DNA of 40,901 nt from Planctomycetota bacterium (lineage in GTDB: Bacteria > Planctomycetota > Planctomycetia > Pirellulales > UBA1268): NCBI GenBank assembly GCA_016872555.1, contig VGZO01000038.1, positions 1-40,901 on the forward strand, in the 5' to 3' direction. Below are positions 15,648 through 40,901 of the stretch, piece by piece (within the stretch, counting starts at the first letter, position 1; every line of letters begins with the position of its first letter). A program made the translations under genes and the position numbers. Below the pieces are notes generated by a model. It was not told the DNA's origin. It saw only the letters and a list, made by a program, of their open reading frames with translations, and searched no databases.

Positions 15648-16499
15648 ATGTCCACGCGTGATCCGTTCCGTCAGCTGGCGCTCGGCGTGGCTTTGGTCGC
15701 CGGCGCGGCGGGACTGCTTCCCGCCGACGCGCGGGAGCCGGTGCGGGGACCCCGGGCCGCCCGGACGCCCCGGATGGCAGTCGCCCCCGAAGACGGCGGC
15801 ACGGTGCTCGAGGCGGAAGCCAAGGGGCTCATCAAACTCACCTACATTCCCAACGACGCCCGCTCGGCTCAGGTGATCGTGCAAAACACCTCCGGCAAGC
15901 CGCTGTCGCTCCGTCTTCCCGATGCCTTCGTCGGCGTCCCGGTCCTCGCCCAGATGGGGATGGGGGGCGGCGGCATGGGGATGGGGGGCATGGGGGGCGG
16001 CGGCAGGGGTGGTGGGGGAGGCTTCCAGACCGGTGGAGGCGGTGGCATGGGTGGCATGGGTGGCATGGGTGGCATGGGCGGCATGGGCGGAGGAATGGGG
16101 GGCGTTGTCGCGCCCGGTGGCCCCTTCTCGGTGCCCCCTGAGAAAACCCGGGTCGTCCGTGTCGCGACCGTCTGCCTGGAATACGGCAAGCACGACCCGA
16201 TGCCTCGGATCCCGTACCGCATGCAGGAGCTCGACACCTTCTCGACCGACCCGAAGCTGGCCGCGGTCCTCGAGGCGCTCGGCCGCGGAGCGATCAGCCA
16301 GAAGGTGGCCCAGGCGGCGGCCTGGCATCTGTCGAGCGGCCTGTCGTGGGAGCAGCTCGCCGCGGAAAAGATCGACCACGTCGGCGTGCCCGACGAGGCC
16401 TACTTCCATCCCGCCGAGCTGCGGGCTGCCCATCAGCTCGTCGAGCAGGTCACGCGGACCACGGCGCCGGCCGTCGAGACTTCTTCGAGCGGCGCGTAA
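15648..16499 (+). CDS. secreted protein with a Gly/Met-rich GGM repeat (unknown function)
   Basis: A 283-residue protein. A signal peptide is clear (MSTRDPFRQ then LALGVALVAGAAGLLPADA, cleavage near 30). The middle, about residues 104-150, is low-complexity Gly/Met, with five exact 9-bp units encoding GGM at 16041-16085. The flanks are ordered: KLTYIPNDARSAQVIVQNTS before it looks like a beta-strand domain with a surface-protein style 'N-terminal to DUF' fold, and VVRVATVCLEYGKHDPMPRI after it is followed by a helical C-terminus. I do not recognise the family; similar proteins occur in planctomycetes. An SD (GAGGGAG, 15633-15639) lies 8 nt before this ATG, which is why I prefer it to the GTG at 15639. 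It is convergent with the pseudopilin gene, 3 bp apart. Confidence 0.75.
   Translation: MSTRDPFRQLALGVALVAGAAGLLPADAREPVRGPRAARTPRMAVAPEDGGTVLEAEAKGLIKLTYIPNDARSAQVIVQNTSGKPLSLRLPDAFVGVPVLAQMGMGGGGMGMGGMGGGGRGGGGGFQTGGGGGMGGMGGMGGMGGMGGGMGGVVAPGGPFSVPPEKTRVVRVATVCLEYGKHDPMPRIPYRMQELDTFSTDPKLAAVLEALGRGAISQKVAQAAAWHLSSGLSWEQLAAEKIDHVGVPDEAYFHPAELRAAHQLVEQVTRTTAPAVETSSSGA
16041..16085 (+). repeat. five 9-bp coding repeats (GGM)
   Basis: GGTGGCATG is repeated four times exactly (16041-16076), with a fifth copy GGCGGCATG (16077-16085), in frame and encoding Gly-Gly-Met. It is part of the longer Gly/Met-rich region from about 15957 to 16100. Confidence 0.9.
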
Positions 16500-31684: not shown

Positions 31685-33208
31685 CTACTCGCGGAAGTCT
31701 TCCTCGACGCTCTGCTGCCCGTAGATCGGCAGGTGGCGGTAGTAGACCTCGAGGATCATCGCCGACAGCGCGGTGCAGTACAGCCGTCCGGCCGCGTCGG
31801 CACCGTGGCCGCTGTCGACGCCGTCGTACCAGCTCCCCGCCTCGTGGCCGCGCTTGGCCTGCGTATTGAGGAGCAGGTCGCGCATCCGGGTGTTCCACGC
31901 GGTCCAGGCGTCGCCCTCGAGGTGGTGAAGGACCTGCGTGGCGTAGTAGTTGTGGTACAGGTCCTTCGACGGACCCGCCTTGGCGAGGTTCGCGACGCCG
32001 CGCTGGAGAGCGGGGTTGTTCTTCTTCCACCCGAGGTACATCCGGCACAGCAGGCCGACGGCGTTCCGCGCCGGCCCGGGGGTCGACTTGTCGGTGTAGC
32101 CGTAGGCGGCGCCGTCGTCGGACTGCACCGAGTCGAGGAACGCCACCGCCTTCTTCACGGTCAGCGGATTGACGCGGAGATTCGCCATGTCGCCGCTCTT
32201 CAGTGCCATCAATTGCCAGCCGACCGCCGAGGTGTCGCCGGGTTGCTTCGGCGAATAGCGCCAGCCGCCGCCCACCGGATCCTGGGCAGTCATGATGAAG
32301 TTCAGCGCCAACTGCGCGGGGAGCTGGAGGCGCGGGTCCTTCGACATCGCGTAGGACTCCGAGAGGACGATCCCCGCGAGCCCCTGCGAGTACAGTGTGC
32401 CATCCTCACCGTAGCACTTCCCCTCTCCCTTGAGCGACATCCCGGCGAGGAACGCGATCCCGGCGTCGAGCTGCTTTTTGTACGGGCCCTCGCGGTGCGT
32501 GTAGCCGCGGCCGAGGAACGGCAGCAGCGCCAGCGCTGTCGCCCCGCAGCGGTCCTTCGCCCGCGACTTCCCCGAGTGCGAGCACTGGCCCTGGCAGCTC
32601 GGGCAGGCGGCGAGGTCGAACGACCAACCGCCGTCGGGCATCTGATGGGAGATGAACCATTTCAATGCCGCCTCGACGGCCGCCTCCGTCTGTGCGTTGC
32701 CGCCGCCGGCGAGAACGAGCTGTTGCCGCATCTTCGGATCAGTGCGGCCACCGAGGCCCCCCGCCTGCCCCGCGATCCCGCCGACGCCGGCGAGCAGATC
32801 GCTCGGCTGCACCATCTCGCTGCCGAAGTCGCTCAGTTCGACCGCCACGGCAGGTGCCGAGAGATCCTCGGCGTCGGCCACCACCTGGACGTTCTCGACC
32901 GCCGCATCGGGGACGACTACCGGGTCGGTCACTTCCTCCATCGGCAACTGATCGGGCATCTCGTCGGCGAGGTCGCCGATGTCCTCGGCGCTCTCCGGGG
33001 CGTTGGAGACGATCATCTTCGGGCGCAGGTCGGCCTTGGGGGCCTCGGAGACGATCAGCGCCATCGCCAGCAGGATGATGATGTGGACGAGCATCGACAC
33101 CGCCCAGGCTGGAACCTGGCGGAGAAGGCCCGCGGCGAGGCCGCGCCCGCTACCCGGGTCGGAGTGCACGCCGGCGGCACCGGTCGAAGAAATGGTCTGC
33201 CCAGCCAT
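31685..33208 (-). CDS. prenyltransferase/squalene-oxidase-repeat protein, first paralogue
   Basis: A 507-residue protein with a membrane helix at about 34-53 ([19 protein letters not shown]), which resembles the N-terminal anchor of TonB-like proteins, then an acidic linker (about 60-130) and a repeat domain (about 170-500): [60 protein letters not shown]. Cysteines 202, 205, 209 and 221 form C-x2-C-x3-C plus one, suggesting a metal or disulfide site in the first repeat; DxDD is absent. The closing [21 protein letters not shown] is shared almost word for word with its downstream paralogue. Such membrane-anchored repeat proteins are common and numerous in planctomycetes; the function is unknown. 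Confidence 0.85.
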
Positions 33209-34757: not shown

Positions 34758-36457
34758 GGCACGAGTCGCTCGAGGAGTGCCGCCGGACCGTGGACGGCCC
34801 CGACCGCCCGACCCAGCGCGGCGGCGGCGTGCCTGTAATGGTCGGCGTGCCGCGCCACCTCGGCCAGGGCGGCGGGAACGTCGGCGACATCGTCGACGAT
34901 CACGCCCGCGGCCCCCGCCGGTGGCGGGGCGCCGCCGGCCAGCGCGTCGATCGCGATCCGGTCGATCGCCACCTCCGCCGCGGCGCGGACCGGCCCGACG
35001 TGAACGGTCATGGTCCGGGGCGTCGCGACCGGCCGGAGCGGAAACAGCACGGCCGTCGTCCGACCCGCCGACGGTGCACAGGCGACCGTGGCGGGGAGCG
35101 GCGGGGCATCGTCGTCGTCGGTGGCACAGGCCAGCCGGAGCGGCGGTTCGGCGAGGGCATCGGTGCCGTCGCACGCCCATGCCACGTCCACCACCAGCGC
35201 CGTGGTCCCCGCCGGCACGGCGCAGCGCACGGCGAGCCCCGGGTGGCGGACGGTCATGGCGCGAACGAGCCCCAGCCGCTGGCTGGCGGCGCCGGCGGCG
35301 ATCCGCGCGACATGGTCAGCCTGTGCGCCGGCGAGTTGCCGGGCCATCCAGCCCCCGCCGGTGACGATCGGCACCGCCCCGGCGACGAGCGTTTCGAGGA
35401 GGATCGCCGAGAGCCGCGTGCGGTAGCGGTCCTGATCGTAGGCCAGCAGGGCGACGTCGGCGCGGCGCAGCTGGCCGATGTAGGCCGCGTCGTCGAGCGG
35501 CCCGTCGACGAGCTCGACGCTCGGCCGGTCACCGAGTTCCGCCAGGCAGCGGCGCACCGCTTCGTGCCCGGGCGCGGTCGAGGTGGCGGCGAAGCCCGGA
35601 TTGCACTGCACGGCGAACGTCACCGCGGCCGCCAGCACCGGCCGCGCCGCGACCGCGTCGACGATCCCGGCGAGATGGTGGCTGTTCTTCTCCGGGCGGG
35701 CGTCGCCGAGCGCCGCGACCCGCAGGGGCCCCGCGGCGGAGCGCTGCCCCGGCGGTGGCGGCGGAACGACGACCGGGTAGGGCAGCACGCCACAGGGTGC
35801 CACGCCGAGCCGGGTGTACTGCGCCGCCAGCTCGGGCGTCGTGGCGTGGAACGCGAGCCGGTGGGGGGCGGCCTCGTGCACGGCCCCCGCCAGCAGCCGC
35901 CGCACGCGCTCCAACCGCCCGACCTGCCGCGGCCGATCGGTGCGGAAGCCGCGTTCGATCGCGGTGTGGAACAGCACGTGGCAGCCGATGCCGACGGGCA
36001 ACGGGGACCGCGCCAGCGCCCGAGCCAGCCCCGCGGCTTCGAGTTCCGACGCGGTCGTCACGAACACCACGTCGCCGGCACGCAGGTCGGCCAGCGCCGG
36101 GAGCACGCCGCGCGCGAAGCCCTCGATCCGCTCCTCGCGGCGGCGCTGCCGGTGCCAAGCGGCCCACGGCAGCTCGGGACGAAACCGGCGCCGGCCGCGC
36201 TCGTCGAGCCGGTCGAGTTCGCCGGCGGCGGTCACCTTGGAGTGTGGACCGAACGGCAGCGTCGCCTGGACGGCGCACTCTTCCGGGATCCCGGCACCGG
36301 CGACGAATCCGCGCCGCGCGACGATCGTGCAGCGGCGCTGGCCGGCAACGCCCAGCAGCGCGGAGACGAACCGGCCGGCATGGCTCCCCGCCGCCCCCGG
36401 GGCCGAGGGCTCGAGGCAGGGCTCGACGATCACCAGCCGCGGGTCGGAAGCGCTCAC
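34754..36457 (-). CDS. GT-B glycosyltransferase with an inserted beta-rich domain
   Basis: A 567-residue protein. The N-terminal acceptor half contains IVEPCLEPSAPGAAGSHAG and PVGIGCHVLFHTAIERGF; the donor half starts near ALGDARPEKNSHHLAGI and has YDQDRYRTRLSAILLETLVAG, where Glu lies in the usual sugar-nucleotide site. After MARQLAGAQADHVARIAAGA a segment of about 110 residues (about 400-510) interrupts the fold; it is rich in V/T/A strands and in short Cys-containing stretches and resembles a beta-sandwich module. The GT-B helix then resumes with GVIVDDVADVPAALAEVARH. The extra module is unusual for GT4 enzymes. Both ends overlap neighbours by ATGA, so it belongs firmly to the lpxK operon. 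Confidence 0.75.
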   Translation of the reverse strand: MSASDPRLVIVEPCLEPSAPGAAGSHAGRFVSALLGVAGQRRCTIVARRGFVAGAGIPEECAVQATLPFGPHSKVTAAGELDRLDERGRRRFRPELPWAAWHRQRRREERIEGFARGVLPALADLRAGDVVFVTTASELEAAGLARALARSPLPVGIGCHVLFHTAIERGFRTDRPRQVGRLERVRRLLAGAVHEAAPHRLAFHATTPELAAQYTRLGVAPCGVLPYPVVVPPPPPGQRSAAGPLRVAALGDARPEKNSHHLAGIVDAVAARPVLAAAVTFAVQCNPGFAATSTAPGHEAVRRCLAELGDRPSVELVDGPLDDAAYIGQLRRADVALLAYDQDRYRTRLSAILLETLVAGAVPIVTGGGWMARQLAGAQADHVARIAAGAASQRLGLVRAMTVRHPGLAVRCAVPAGTTALVVDVAWACDGTDALAEPPLRLACATDDDDAPPLPATVACAPSAGRTTAVLFPLRPVATPRTMTVHVGPVRAAAEVAIDRIAIDALAGGAPPPAGAAGVIVDDVADVPAALAEVARHADHYRHAAAALGRAVGAVHGPAALLERLVP

Positions 36458-37530
36458 GACTCCACCCCGTCACGCCGCCAGACGTCGTCGAGCAGTCGCT
36501 CGAGGGGGGCGGCGTCGCCGAGGGGCGCCAGCGCGATCTCCACGGCGACGACCGGCAGGGTGAACGCCTCCGGGCTCAGCTTCACCATGTCCTTGAGGGT
36601 CGTGACGAGCACCTCGGCCCCGAGGCCGGCACCCCACGCGCCGAGCCGATGCTGGTCGGAAGCGTCGTAGCGATGGTGATCGGGGAAGGCGTGGAAGCCG
36701 AGCGGAGCCGCACCGCGGCCGACCAGCATCGCGCGGAAGGGGGCGGGATTGCCGATCCCGGCGAACGCCGCCACGCGCCTGCCGGCGAGCCACTCCAGCG
36801 GCCGGAGCGCCCCGTCGAGGCCGCGCAACCCGACCGGCTCGTGGTCCGTCTCCAGCCAGACCAGCGGCCGGGCGCCGCTGGCACGCACGACGGCGGCGTG
36901 GATCTCGCGACGGCGCTCGTGCGCGACGGCGGAGGCGCGGGTGAGGACCACGGCGTCGGCGCGGCGGAGCGCCGCCACCGGCTCGCGCAGCAGACCGCGC
37001 GGGAAGAGGTGGCCGCAGCCGTCGGGATCGGTGGCGTCGACGGCGACGATGTCGACGGTTCGGGCGAGCCGCCGGTGCTGGAAGCCGTCGTCGAGGATCG
37101 CCACCTCGGCTCCCCCGGCGACGGCCCGGGCGACGGCAGCGACCCGGTCACGGTCGGCGACGTGCGGCACGTCGGGGAGCACCACCGCCAGCTCGGCGGC
37201 CTCGTCGCTGGGTTCTCCGGCCAGTGCGCCGTAGCCACGGCTGACGATCGCCACACGCCGTGACCGGCGGCGGTAGGCGCGAGCGATCCACGACACCAGC
37301 GGGGTCTTGCCGGTGCCGCCGAGCGTGAGGTTGCCCACCGACACCACCGGAACGTCCGCGCGGCGGATGCCGAGAAGCCCGGTGTCGTAGGCGCGATTCC
37401 GCAGGCCGACCACCGCGCCATAGGGGATCGCCACCCCGGCGAGCACGCCGCGGGCGAGCGCCGGGCCGACCCCGGTCAGAGAGCCGTCGACGAGCCGACG
37501 GAACGACTCGGCATCGGGCAGGAGACGCAT
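36454..37530 (-). CDS. lpxK: tetraacyldisaccharide 4'-kinase
   Basis: A 358-residue enzyme that phosphorylates the 4' position of the lipid A precursor at the inner membrane. The N-terminal membrane-interacting part (LARGVLAGVAIPYGAVVGLRN) precedes the P-loop VGNLTLGGTGKTP (about 65-77); VAILDDGFQHRRL is the next invariant motif, followed by DPDGCGHLFPRGLLREPVAAL and DHHRYDASD, a conserved late block of the family. Length is usual. It begins a minus-strand operon with two glycosyltransferases. The ATG at 37530 lies 182 bp from the divergent start of the large membrane protein. Lipid A synthesis genes in planctomycetes support an outer membrane with LPS. Confidence 0.93.
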   Translation of the reverse strand: MRLLPDAESFRRLVDGSLTGVGPALARGVLAGVAIPYGAVVGLRNRAYDTGLLGIRRADVPVVSVGNLTLGGTGKTPLVSWIARAYRRRSRRVAIVSRGYGALAGEPSDEAAELAVVLPDVPHVADRDRVAAVARAVAGGAEVAILDDGFQHRRLARTVDIVAVDATDPDGCGHLFPRGLLREPVAALRRADAVVLTRASAVAHERRREIHAAVVRASGARPLVWLETDHEPVGLRGLDGALRPLEWLAGRRVAAFAGIGNPAPFRAMLVGRGAAPLGFHAFPDHHRYDASDQHRLGAWGAGLGAEVLVTTLKDMVKLSPEAFTLPVVAVEIALAPLGDAAPLERLLDDVWRRDGVES

Positions 37531-37712: not shown

Positions 37713-40700
37713 ATGGCGTCCGTGATCCCGCCCCCCGATGCCGCCGCAGCCGTCGCCGATCCACCGGCCGACGTGCCCCGCCCGGCGCCGGCCGCCGGCG
37801 TCGAGGCGTTGACCGTCCGCGAGTGGACCCCCGGCGCCGCGGGCGAAGGCGCGAACTCCGACGCCTACCTCGCCGGCCGGCTCGCCGCTGCCTCTGCCGA
37901 CTACAAGGGGGTCGCGTTCACCACGTTCATCCTCGGTGCCACGCTCGGGGCGATCGGGTGGCTGGCTTGCGGCGGGCTCGTCGAGCACTGGCTGGTCGTG
38001 GGGGGGCTTCCGCGGCCCGTCCGGTGGGCATGGCTGGGCGCCGGTCTGGTGGGCCTGGCGGCCGCGGCGCTCCGCTGGCTGTTGCCGTTGGTGCGCTACC
38101 GCGTCAATCTCGTCTACGCGGCACGGCAGATCGAACGCGAGCATCCCGAACTGCACAACGACCTGGTGAACACGGTCCTGGTCCGGGCCCGGCCCGCAGG
38201 CAGCGCGCCGGTGGTCGTGACGTCGCTCAAGCGGCGGACGGCGCGGCAACTCGCCGACTTCGCCGCGGGCACCACCATCGACTGGACGATGGCCCTCCGC
38301 CTCACCTACGCCCTGCTGGCGGCGGTGGTGCTTGTGGGGCTGTACGAAGTGCTCGCGCCCAAGAGCCTGCTGGTGTCGGGGGCTCGGCTGCTGGCGCCAT
38401 GGATCGGCTGGGCTGCGCCATCGCGGGTGCAGATCGACAGTCCGCAATTGGCGTGGCGGATGCCCAACGGGGCCGCAGCCGACGATCCTTCCAAGGATGG
38501 GCGCGGGAGCGGGGCCGATCCCCGCCGCAAGGTGGCGATCGACGGGGGCCGGGCGGTTGTCGTCCGCGGACGGCAACTCGAGACCAGCGCCGCGATCCGT
38601 GGCCTGCGGTCGGGCGAGGAGCCGGTCTGCCGGATCACTCCGCTGAACGAGGCGGGGCTTCCCGATCCGCACGGCGCGCCCTGGGAGGTGGCGATGCGCG
38701 CCACCGCCGACGCCGACGGCGGCGGGCGCCTGTACACGGCGCTCTTGCCCGACGCCGCCCGCGGGCTCGATCGGTCGCTCGCCGTCGCGATCGCCGCCGG
38801 CGACAGCCACACCGAGCCGGTGCGGGTGTCGGTGGTCGACGCGCCGTCGCTGCTGGTGCGTGAGGTCCGCTACGACTTTCCGCCGTACACGCGCCGCGGA
38901 CCGGAAACGGCTGCGTGGCAGGGGGACCTCCGCGCTGTTGAGGAGACGCTCGCCACGCTCACCGTCGAGGCCAACCAACCCCTCGACCAGGCCTGGATCG
39001 ACTTCCGCTGCGACGGCCAACGCGACCTGAAAATCAAGCTCTCCGGGACGAGTGCCCGCCACGGAACGGTGTCGTTTCCGCTCCGCCTCAACGGCGACCG
39101 GACGGCCCCCGAGCATCCCACGTATCGCCTCCTCTTCCAGCAGGCGGGGAGCGACGATGGCGTGCTGGCCGACAGTCTCGAACACCGCATCGAGGTGATC
39201 GCCGACCTCGCCCCGGAGATCGCCATCGAGGAACCGACTGATTCACCGTTGCGCGTGCCGCCGGGGAGCCCGGTGGCGGTGCGCGTCCGGGCCAACGATC
39301 CCGACTTCGGCCTGGCGCGGGTCGGCGTCGAGACGCGGATCAAGGGAGCCGGACAAGTGACGCCGATCGTGCTCCTCGAGGAACCCCGCGAAGGGGTGTT
39401 CAAGGGGACGGCACGGCTAATCCCCGACAAACTGGGCGCCGGCCCGGGGAGCGTCCTGGAATACCGTGGATTCGCGATCGATACCCGTCCCCAGGAAATC
39501 AACGTCGCCCGTTCACCGTGGCAGGAACTGCAGATCGACGCGGCTGCCAAGCCCCAGCAGCGCCCCGCCGATCAACCCGGCATCCCCGATGATCCTGACC
39601 GCCAGGGAGCCAGGAAACAGGGCGCGCGCGACGCCGACCAGCGCGGCGGGCGCGAGGGGGCGGAGGGGGGCCGCGAGCGGCAGGATGGTGGTCAGCGGCA
39701 GGACGACGGCGGGTCCGAGGATCAGCAGCAACCCGACCAGCGCGACGCCGGCCAGCAGGCGCGCCAGCGCCCCGGCGGCGATCGCGACCGGAACAGGGAA
39801 AACGACGATCAGCAGCGTCCGCAGCAGCAGCAACGCGATCGAGGCCAGGACGGCGACGAACCGGCCAGCGATGGCGGTGGCGGAGAAGGACAGCAGGCCG
39901 GAGAGGGGGAGCAGGGAGCGGGGCAGGGCAACGCTGGCCGGGGCGAAGAGGGACGCGCGGGGAGATCGGGTGGACGTCAGCAGGGGCAGCCCCGCGCCGG
40001 TGCCGACGGTGAGGCATCGGCGGAGTCGGGTGGGCAGTCCGGTTCGACGGATGGGCAGCGGGGCGCGGGGCGAGGCGGTTCGTCGGACGACCAGCGCGAT
40101 GGGCAGTCGGGTGCGGACGGTCAGGACGCGTCCGGCACCGACGGCGGCGACGGGCGGCCGGCCAACTCCGGTGGACGGTCCGCGCAGCGGTCCGGACGCG
40201 ACGGCGCCGATGCAGACCGTGTCGCCGCCGATGGCACCGACGACGGCACCGCGATGGAGCGGATCCTCGCCGACCGCCAGGCTGCCGGGGCCGACGGCGG
40301 CGCCGCGGACGACGCGCGGGGGCAGCGTGGCGATGGCGATCGTGCTGGCCAGCCCGAGGGGGACCGGCGCGGCGATGAGCAGGGCGGGCAACGTCGCGAC
40401 GATCGAAAGCGTCCCGGCCAGGACGGCGTGAGCTCCGACCGCAACGGCGGGGAGAACGCGGGCGATGGCTCGGGTGCCGATCGTGCACGACCCGGTGACC
40501 AGCGCGGGAGAGGCGGCGAACCGGGCGCTGGCGATGCGCAGGCTGGCACCGATGCCGCTGCGAACGGGGCCGATCGCCCGGGCTCCCGCGATCCAGAAGA
40601 CGGCCGTGGGGAGCAAACCCCCGGCATGCGCGATCAAAAGCCGGCACCGGGGCAAGAACCGGGTGGCGACGGCGACCAAGCGGGGATGCCCCAGGGAGAC

Positions 40701-40901
40701 GGAGCCAATCAAGGCGACGGTCAACGCCGTGGCGACGATCGCCCCGGTCAGCAGCAGGGCGGCGGAGAGCAGCAGGGTGGCGGAGAGCAGCAAGGTGGTG
40801 GAGAGCAGCAAGGTGGTGGAGAGCAGCAAGGTGGTGGAGAGCAGCAAGGCGGTGGAGAGCAGCAAGGTGGTGGAGAGCAGCAAGGCGGTGGAGAGCAGCA
40901 A
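37713..40901 (+). CDS. very large membrane protein with a hydrophilic D/G/Q/R repeat tail (truncated at window end)
   Basis: The frame is open from ATG 37713 to the last base of the window without a stop: at least 1063 residues. GGAGG lies 7 nt before the ATG. The N-terminal part has three membrane helices (about 67-88, 104-124, 194-214) separated by a conserved cytoplasmic-looking block (NLVYAARQIEREHPELHNDL) and then a ~390-residue extracytoplasmic part with beta-rich blocks (RYDFPPYTRRGPE, LAPEIAIEEPTDSPLRVPPG, SVLEYRGFAID). From residue about 610 the composition changes abruptly to Asp/Gly/Gln/Arg with almost no hydrophobic residues, ending in eight 18-bp repeats (40758-40901). The N-terminal layout resembles the DUF4175-type proteins of planctomycetes, but I do not recognise it with certainty. 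The antisense frame over its tail is only a shadow. Confidence 0.8.
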   Translation, partial: MASVIPPPDAAAAVADPPADVPRPAPAAGVEALTVREWTPGAAGEGANSDAYLAGRLAAASADYKGVAFTTFILGATLGAIGWLACGGLVEHWLVVGGLPRPVRWAWLGAGLVGLAAAALRWLLPLVRYRVNLVYAARQIEREHPELHNDLVNTVLVRARPAGSAPVVVTSLKRRTARQLADFAAGTTIDWTMALRLTYALLAAVVLVGLYEVLAPKSLLVSGARLLAPWIGWAAPSRVQIDSPQLAWRMPNGAAADDPSKDGRGSGADPRRKVAIDGGRAVVVRGRQLETSAAIRGLRSGEEPVCRITPLNEAGLPDPHGAPWEVAMRATADADGGGRLYTALLPDAARGLDRSLAVAIAAGDSHTEPVRVSVVDAPSLLVREVRYDFPPYTRRGPETAAWQGDLRAVEETLATLTVEANQPLDQAWIDFRCDGQRDLKIKLSGTSARHGTVSFPLRLNGDRTAPEHPTYRLLFQQAGSDDGVLADSLEHRIEVIADLAPEIAIEEPTDSPLRVPPGSPVAVRVRANDPDFGLARVGVETRIKGAGQVTPIVLLEEPREGVFKGTARLIPDKLGAGPGSVLEYRGFAIDTRPQEINVARSPWQELQIDAAAKPQQRPADQPGIPDDPDRQGARKQGARDADQRGGREGAEGGRERQDGGQRQDDGGSEDQQQPDQRDAGQQARQRPGGDRDRNRENDDQQRPQQQQRDRGQDGDEPASDGGGGEGQQAGEGEQGAGQGNAGRGEEGRAGRSGGRQQGQPRAGADGEASAESGGQSGSTDGQRGAGRGGSSDDQRDGQSGADGQDASGTDGGDGRPANSGGRSAQRSGRDGADADRVAADGTDDGTAMERILADRQAAGADGGAADDARGQRGDGDRAGQPEGDRRGDEQGGQRRDDRKRPGQDGVSSDRNGGENAGDGSGADRARPGDQRGRGGEPGAGDAQAGTDAAANGADRPGSRDPEDGRGEQTPGMRDQKPAPGQEPGGDGDQAGMPQGDGANQGDGQRRGDDRPGQQQGGGEQQGGGEQQGGGEQQGGGEQQGGGEQQGGGEQQGGGEQQGGGEQQ
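40758..40901 (+). repeat. eight 18-bp coding tandem repeats (GGGEQQ) running off the window
   Basis: The unit GGTGGTGGAGAGCAGCAA, with only T/C or A/G third-position changes, is repeated eight times without interruption over 144 bp and in frame. Each unit encodes Gly-Gly-Gly-Glu-Gln-Gln. The array reaches the end of the window, so its full copy number is unknown. Confidence 0.95.

Follow-up and report, generated by a model that had tools for sequence, protein, structure and literature searches.

What kind of protein is encoded where a reading frame passes from a membrane domain into a long hydrophilic tail and leaves its contig inside a repeat, and what might the tail be for? The window, i.e. 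the whole stretch of 40,901 nucleotides analysed here, is the complete contig C38 of a planctomycete-type assembly (4,466,139 bases in 162 contigs; genome G000), and the contig therefore ends inside the repeat itself. The frame starts with the ATG at 37713, a start backed by relatives beginning MATV or MSTA, and remains open to the last base, giving 1063 residues in the window. The features at this end of the contig are as follows.

37713..40901, plus strand: coding sequence of the tailed membrane protein, which the contig end interrupts; its remainder and stop lie on contig C19 of the same genome (C19:1-956, L009)
40717..40749, plus strand: left flank of the array, identical to C19:1-33
40752..40901, plus strand: tandem array of 18-base units encoding QQGGGE, about 8.3 copies to the contig end, found by repeat detection

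The first 33 bases of contig C19 are this flank. C19 then has 13 GGGEQQ units and further tail sequence, followed by a conserved C-terminal domain and a stop codon at C19:954-956, which overlaps the start of nadB (ATGA). A search of the genome for the repeat-unit pattern returned 19 overlapping matches, all on C19 and C38. The stop thus lies outside the window, as a sequence-only reading of this locus had held, and following the gene downstream supplies the units, domain and stop that it lacked. The notion that the protein ends in its tail was dropped, because the conserved domain comes after the tail, which is therefore internal. Just past the shared flank C38 has a Gln codon and C19 an Arg codon, and the synonymous pattern of the array units also differs between the two contigs. 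These two versions in one bin, which are our view of copy number within the species, are either two alleles, with C19 holding the complete 13-unit array, or the product of an assembler mixing copies, so the copy number of the window gene is not exact.

In order from the N-terminus, the protein has three helices predicted to span the membrane, several Ig-like domains in a string, a tail predicted to be disordered and the C-terminal domain. Within the window its parts are located as follows.

37902..38354, plus strand: three predicted membrane helices, residues about 64-94, 101-128 and 192-214 (hydropathy peaks; helices of the AlphaFold model)
38418..39548, plus strand: predicted Ig/FnIII-like beta domain string, residues 236-612 (AlphaFold model; Foldseek and VIA-align matches)
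39537..40901, plus strand: disordered low-complexity tail, residues 609-1063 in the window (composition, charge-hydropathy)
40221..40280, plus strand: conserved mini-motif in the tail, VAADGTDDGTAMERILADRQ (strict pattern and profile matches)

An AlphaFold model of the N-terminal part, made from 34 sequences (mean pLDDT 82.9, pTM 0.53), places beta strands between residues 245 and 608, preceded by helices at 47-94, 101-128 and 192-214. Residues 236-612 match strings of Ig and FnIII domains in both Foldseek and VIA-align (best Z 10.6, rmsd 10.1, 179 aligned). This predicted fold is common and says nothing on function, and the charge pattern of the membrane-helix loops is a weak topology signal in the window protein. 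The C-terminal domain was modelled on the relative L098 with 19 sequences and is predicted to be all-helical, with four helices at a pLDDT of about 80; its end (RRSRPPSEYREQFKA) is conserved yet poorly predicted, and the mean pLDDT of 66 gives the model moderate confidence. A fold search with this model returned no solved structure at E <= 0.001, and comparison of sequence profiles with solved structures gave nothing below E 0.19. For the C-terminal domain we also considered an SMF/DprA SAM domain, which 14 of 19 members match (best 7e-4), and judged the similarity too weak to use.

The window protein has no match at E <= 10 among Pfam and NCBIfam profiles, including DUF4175 (PF13779; cut-off 27.3 bits) and TIGR02302, and we assigned it to neither family. 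Among 27 N-terminal homologues, nine match DUF4175 at E <= 1 (best 9.6e-9) and one matches TIGR02302 (E 0.032). Since nine homologues touch DUF4175 and the homologue in G038 scores 31.5 bits and passes the cut-off, the window protein is, by profile comparison, a remote relative of DUF4175 rather than a member. Its own genome encodes a separate DUF4175 protein above the family cut-off (G000:C9:95546-96052, L091). TIGR02302 proteins (aProt_lowcomp) have a Gln/Gly-rich low-complexity C-terminal part. Like proteins of both families, the window protein has membrane helices close to the N-terminus followed by an extramembrane part; what sets it apart from them is a mini-motif, arrays that change fast and a conserved domain at the C-terminus. 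AdvA of Acinetobacter baumannii, a membrane protein of otherwise unknown mechanism, has a DUF4175 domain with two predicted membrane helices and is reported to be essential and to localize to mid-cell (PMC7481262). We liken the window protein to AdvA by way of AdvA's DUF4175 domain and the membrane helices. One published table of genes bearing CenR sites includes a Rhodobacter TIGR02302 protein (PMC9275681). In a limited literature collection, mostly titles and abstracts, covering DUF4175, TIGR02302 and planctomycete repeats, disorder and envelope, we found no description of this protein.

The tail was examined in a family sample of 35 of 36 genomes, G032 being dropped because it yielded fragments only. 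In the window it spans 455 residues from residue 609 and is rich in a few residue types (G 27, Q 15, D 14, R 12 and A 11 per cent), with V, I, L, M, F, W, Y and C making up only 1.8%. The long G/Q/D/R-rich tail after a membrane domain is as the sequence-only reading described it, and it is predicted to be disordered: charge and hydropathy put the tail on the disordered side in the window protein, in all 12 intact closed family genes, and in all 20 closed homologues of other families, where tail limits are approximate. Tail length in the 12 family genes is 346-719 residues (median 492). Within the family tails this mini-motif is a near-invariant stretch, VAADGTNDGEAMERILEHRR. Its strict pattern is found in 31 of 35 family frames, the misses being three early-cut frames and G025, which has N for D. 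Among 22 proteins of other families, a profile of the motif matches 8 at E <= 0.0016, whereas no shuffled tail out of 440 did better than 0.009. Another conserved island, Gly-rich and GDRSGGGEKGGGQKANQSGTGGAGQNT-like, occurs in eight of the 22 homologues of other families (L066, L068, L070, L071, L074, L075, L084 and L086) and in none of the 35 family proteins; arrays may have replaced it in the family.

The window array comprises about 8.3-8.4 copies of its unit with 95% matches, and its repeat score is 255, whereas none of 500 codon shuffles of that tail scored above 88. The seven differences across eight units are all synonymous, so that the 18-bp repeats, previously called perfect, are near-perfect. 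Across the family the minisatellite units are 12-21 bases long, mostly 15, and encode different peptides by lineage, among them EGKQG, GQQGQ, QGEGQ (about 42 copies in L138), QPGEGS, SGGEK and DGKQ. The unit changes even between close relatives: L097, from the bin of G001, shares 97% N-terminal identity with the window protein and has GGGQQQ in place of GGGEQQ, and L105, L109 and L111, about 98% identical to one another, carry EGQQG and EGQKG units in different orders. Recent expansion and variation between relatives, as first proposed from the near-identical units, are supported by these comparisons and by the two array versions in one assembly. Of the 73 arrays that reach four copies, with no period filter applied, 70 have a period divisible by three, and gain or loss of whole units therefore alters length and leaves the frame intact. 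We thus have an in-frame tandem array that differs between close relatives, as in a variable stalk of the SD-repeat type. Arrays occur in only 3 of 20 closed homologues of other families, whose tails are equally long; an array is therefore one way of building the spacer, not its essence. Another repeat-rich, coding-like stretch, with 9-base units (GGTGGCATG), is located at window positions 15956-16093.

For selection on the array, detection at the DNA level covered the 58 sequences that remained once six near-duplicate loci had been removed, and arrays were kept if their period was a multiple of three and they needed no indel. Compared with the consensus unit, the resulting 45 arrays from 39 sequences show 438 differences, of which 297 are synonymous, where 121 are expected, and 141 replace an amino acid. 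The synonymous share exceeds expectation in 33 of the 36 arrays with at least three differences (sign test 2e-7); these differences are not independent, because units descend from one another and some loci are related. Detection at the protein level, which is biased towards synonymous differences, gave 306 synonymous and 104 replacement differences. A few arrays, mainly degenerate, show the opposite trend (L110, the second array of L116, and L137). Because the differences are mostly synonymous, the array peptide appears to be under selection. As judged from sequence comparison, the synonymous excess, the conserved composition and the mini-motif show selection on the peptide, not on its length. 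With a unit that evolves fast and a peptide that is seemingly selected, the array offers a natural experiment on what a disordered spacer requires.

The assemblies bear on how this variation is read. Of the 35 family genomes, 21 have the frame cut off at a contig end and 14 have it closed. In the 23 family genomes also searched for the neighbouring ABC permease, a contig end cuts the tailed gene in 14 and the permease in none (Fisher p 7e-6), where the control counts full-length permease matches and the match in G013 is split by frame on one contig. The tailed gene is a systematic break point in short-read assemblies of the family. Were the variation mainly a product of short reads that collapse or shuffle a repeat stable in nature, such breaks would be expected, as would the conflicting array versions of G000 and the frame break or stop within the array of G027 (L056) and G035 (L053), two of the 14 closed frames. 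However, the same unit lies on either side of the break in many genomes (GGGQQQ in G001, GAGEK in G008, PSDK in G004, DGAKP in G007 and GEGQQ in G009, from 20 break pairs compared, some of which showed an array on one side at most or were unreadable to the script), arrays are assembled right through in closed frames such as those of G002, G011, G025 and G034, and the unit itself differs between close relatives. We consider this explanation very improbable. The earlier worry about an assembly artefact is answered in part by the unit, which matches across the breaks in many genomes, but copy numbers from such broken bins are unreliable. A frameshift that ends the protein ahead of its tail, also raised as a danger, is not seen in this genome, where the window frame is open to 40901; among the 14 closed family frames, breaks within the array occur in G027 and G035. 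Those two disruptions are either sequence error or real. We set aside phase variation by frameshift, which they might suggest, as sequence error or isolated mutation is equally likely.

With a probability of about one half, we read the gene as encoding a planctomycete membrane-anchored envelope tether with a length-variable disordered spacer, its location, partner and phenotype being inferred. In this arrangement the three membrane helices would anchor the Ig-like string, followed by the long spacer and the small helical C-terminal domain, all three presumably periplasmic. The C-terminal domain may bind a partner that the spacer would allow it to reach across the periplasm, located in the wall or outer membrane or belonging to a neighbouring complex, and the mini-motif could dock a second partner. 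The array would set the reach of the tether, with in-frame minisatellite slippage resetting spacer length in the family and selection keeping the spacer peptide hydrophilic. The sequence-only reading had offered a periplasmic spacer, an aggregation-prone segment and a glycosylation or binding scaffold; the spacer is best supported, because the tail joins two conserved parts and the unit peptide appears selected, and we found no positive evidence for aggregation or a glycosylation scaffold. Conservation of both ends while the array unit changes fast likewise argues for a tether, as do the order-wide presence of the gene, the modelled helices and Ig-like string, the predicted disorder of the tails, the mini-motif, the periods divisible by three, the synonymous excess and the conserved gene setting. 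The weak charge pattern of the loops, the C-terminal model of moderate confidence with no matching fold, the scarcity of arrays outside the family and the dependence among array differences count against it. An island with four cysteines, C-DGKPCGKEGCSSC-GG, would also suit a cytoplasmic metal site and in this respect speaks against it too. The island is present in 14 of 63 tails (L108, L119, L122, L123, L127, L128, L129, L131, L133, L137, L139, L144, L147 and L152), is absent from the window protein, and could bind metal or form disulfides.

The tail might also be a neutral linker, in which any hydrophilic sequence serves and random slippage has expanded it, its length having no tuning role. 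The wide variation of units among lineages and the twofold range of tail lengths among intact genes fit such a linker; the synonymous excess within arrays and the conserved composition and mini-motif do not, and we regard it as unlikely. A tail that is long, rich in Gly and Gln, charged and disordered could instead drive condensates or clustering in or at the membrane rather than reach a partner. However, aromatic and other hydrophobic residues are nearly absent from the window tail and conserved domains stand at both of its ends, which makes this a highly doubtful proposal.

The tether reading can be set beside known systems with similar parts. Staphylococcal SD-repeat stalks, e.g. that of ClfA, are hydrophilic stretches encoded by in-frame minisatellites in Gram-positive surface adhesins (PMC3324548). 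The present array likewise encodes a hydrophilic stretch whose copy number can shift without frameshift. In contrast to the SD-repeats, it lies in an order-wide gene whose setting is conserved, and one lineage has a different unit from the next. Periplasmic force transducers of the TolA/TonB type combine a membrane anchor with one helix, a long linker, a small C-terminal domain and a motor partner (PMC12204202). The window protein shares the anchor, linker and small terminal domain. However, it has three helices, Ig domains and, in the moderate-pLDDT model, an all-helical C-terminal domain; no TolA/TonB-type family was recognised, although one may escape a model of such confidence, and no TolQ-like gene was seen among the immediate neighbours scanned.

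The gene is widespread in its order. Within the order 59 genomes were searched; all of them have the N-terminal part and 56 have the C-terminal domain, the other three (G017, G021 and G033) being family genomes in which the N-terminal half runs off a contig end. A wider draw of 119 genomes from the phylum gave the C-terminal domain in 6, namely its own genome and five that come from a single family in the same class. Named genomes, when scanned, yielded 62 loci, almost all in planctomycete bins. The upstream neighbour is divergent and is listed here.

36457..37530, minus strand: lpxK (Pfam LpxK, E 6e-72)

Downstream lies nadB, recognised from its FAD-binding and C-terminal domains, together with genes for an ABC ATPase, for an ABC-2 permease carrying ABC_transp_aux and for a DUF4340 protein. 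The permease and the C-terminal domain share a contig in 19 of the 21 family genomes that have both, G006 and G020 being the exceptions. In 11 wider stretches, where nadB-like neighbours were judged from start sequences with Pfam confirmation for L164 only, such a gene clearly adjoins the tailed gene in six (L161-L164, L166 and L167), is not seen in L160 and L168, and is ambiguous in three more. The setting before nadB and the ABC-2 permease is largely conserved. Together with its presence in every genome of the order searched, this setting suggests that the uncharacterised protein probably belongs to the core envelope biology of these bacteria. A bolder proposal, which we consider distinctly unlikely as a whole, is that throughout the order the protein tethers the inner membrane, with a reach that swapping and resizing of a selected minisatellite would retune on near-strain time scales, and that it helps these bacteria link this membrane with the wall or the outer one where they grow or divide. 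Elsewhere in the window, the minus-strand protein at 31688-33208 weakly resembles squalene-hopene cyclases in their C-terminal domain, the match falling slightly short of the cut-off.
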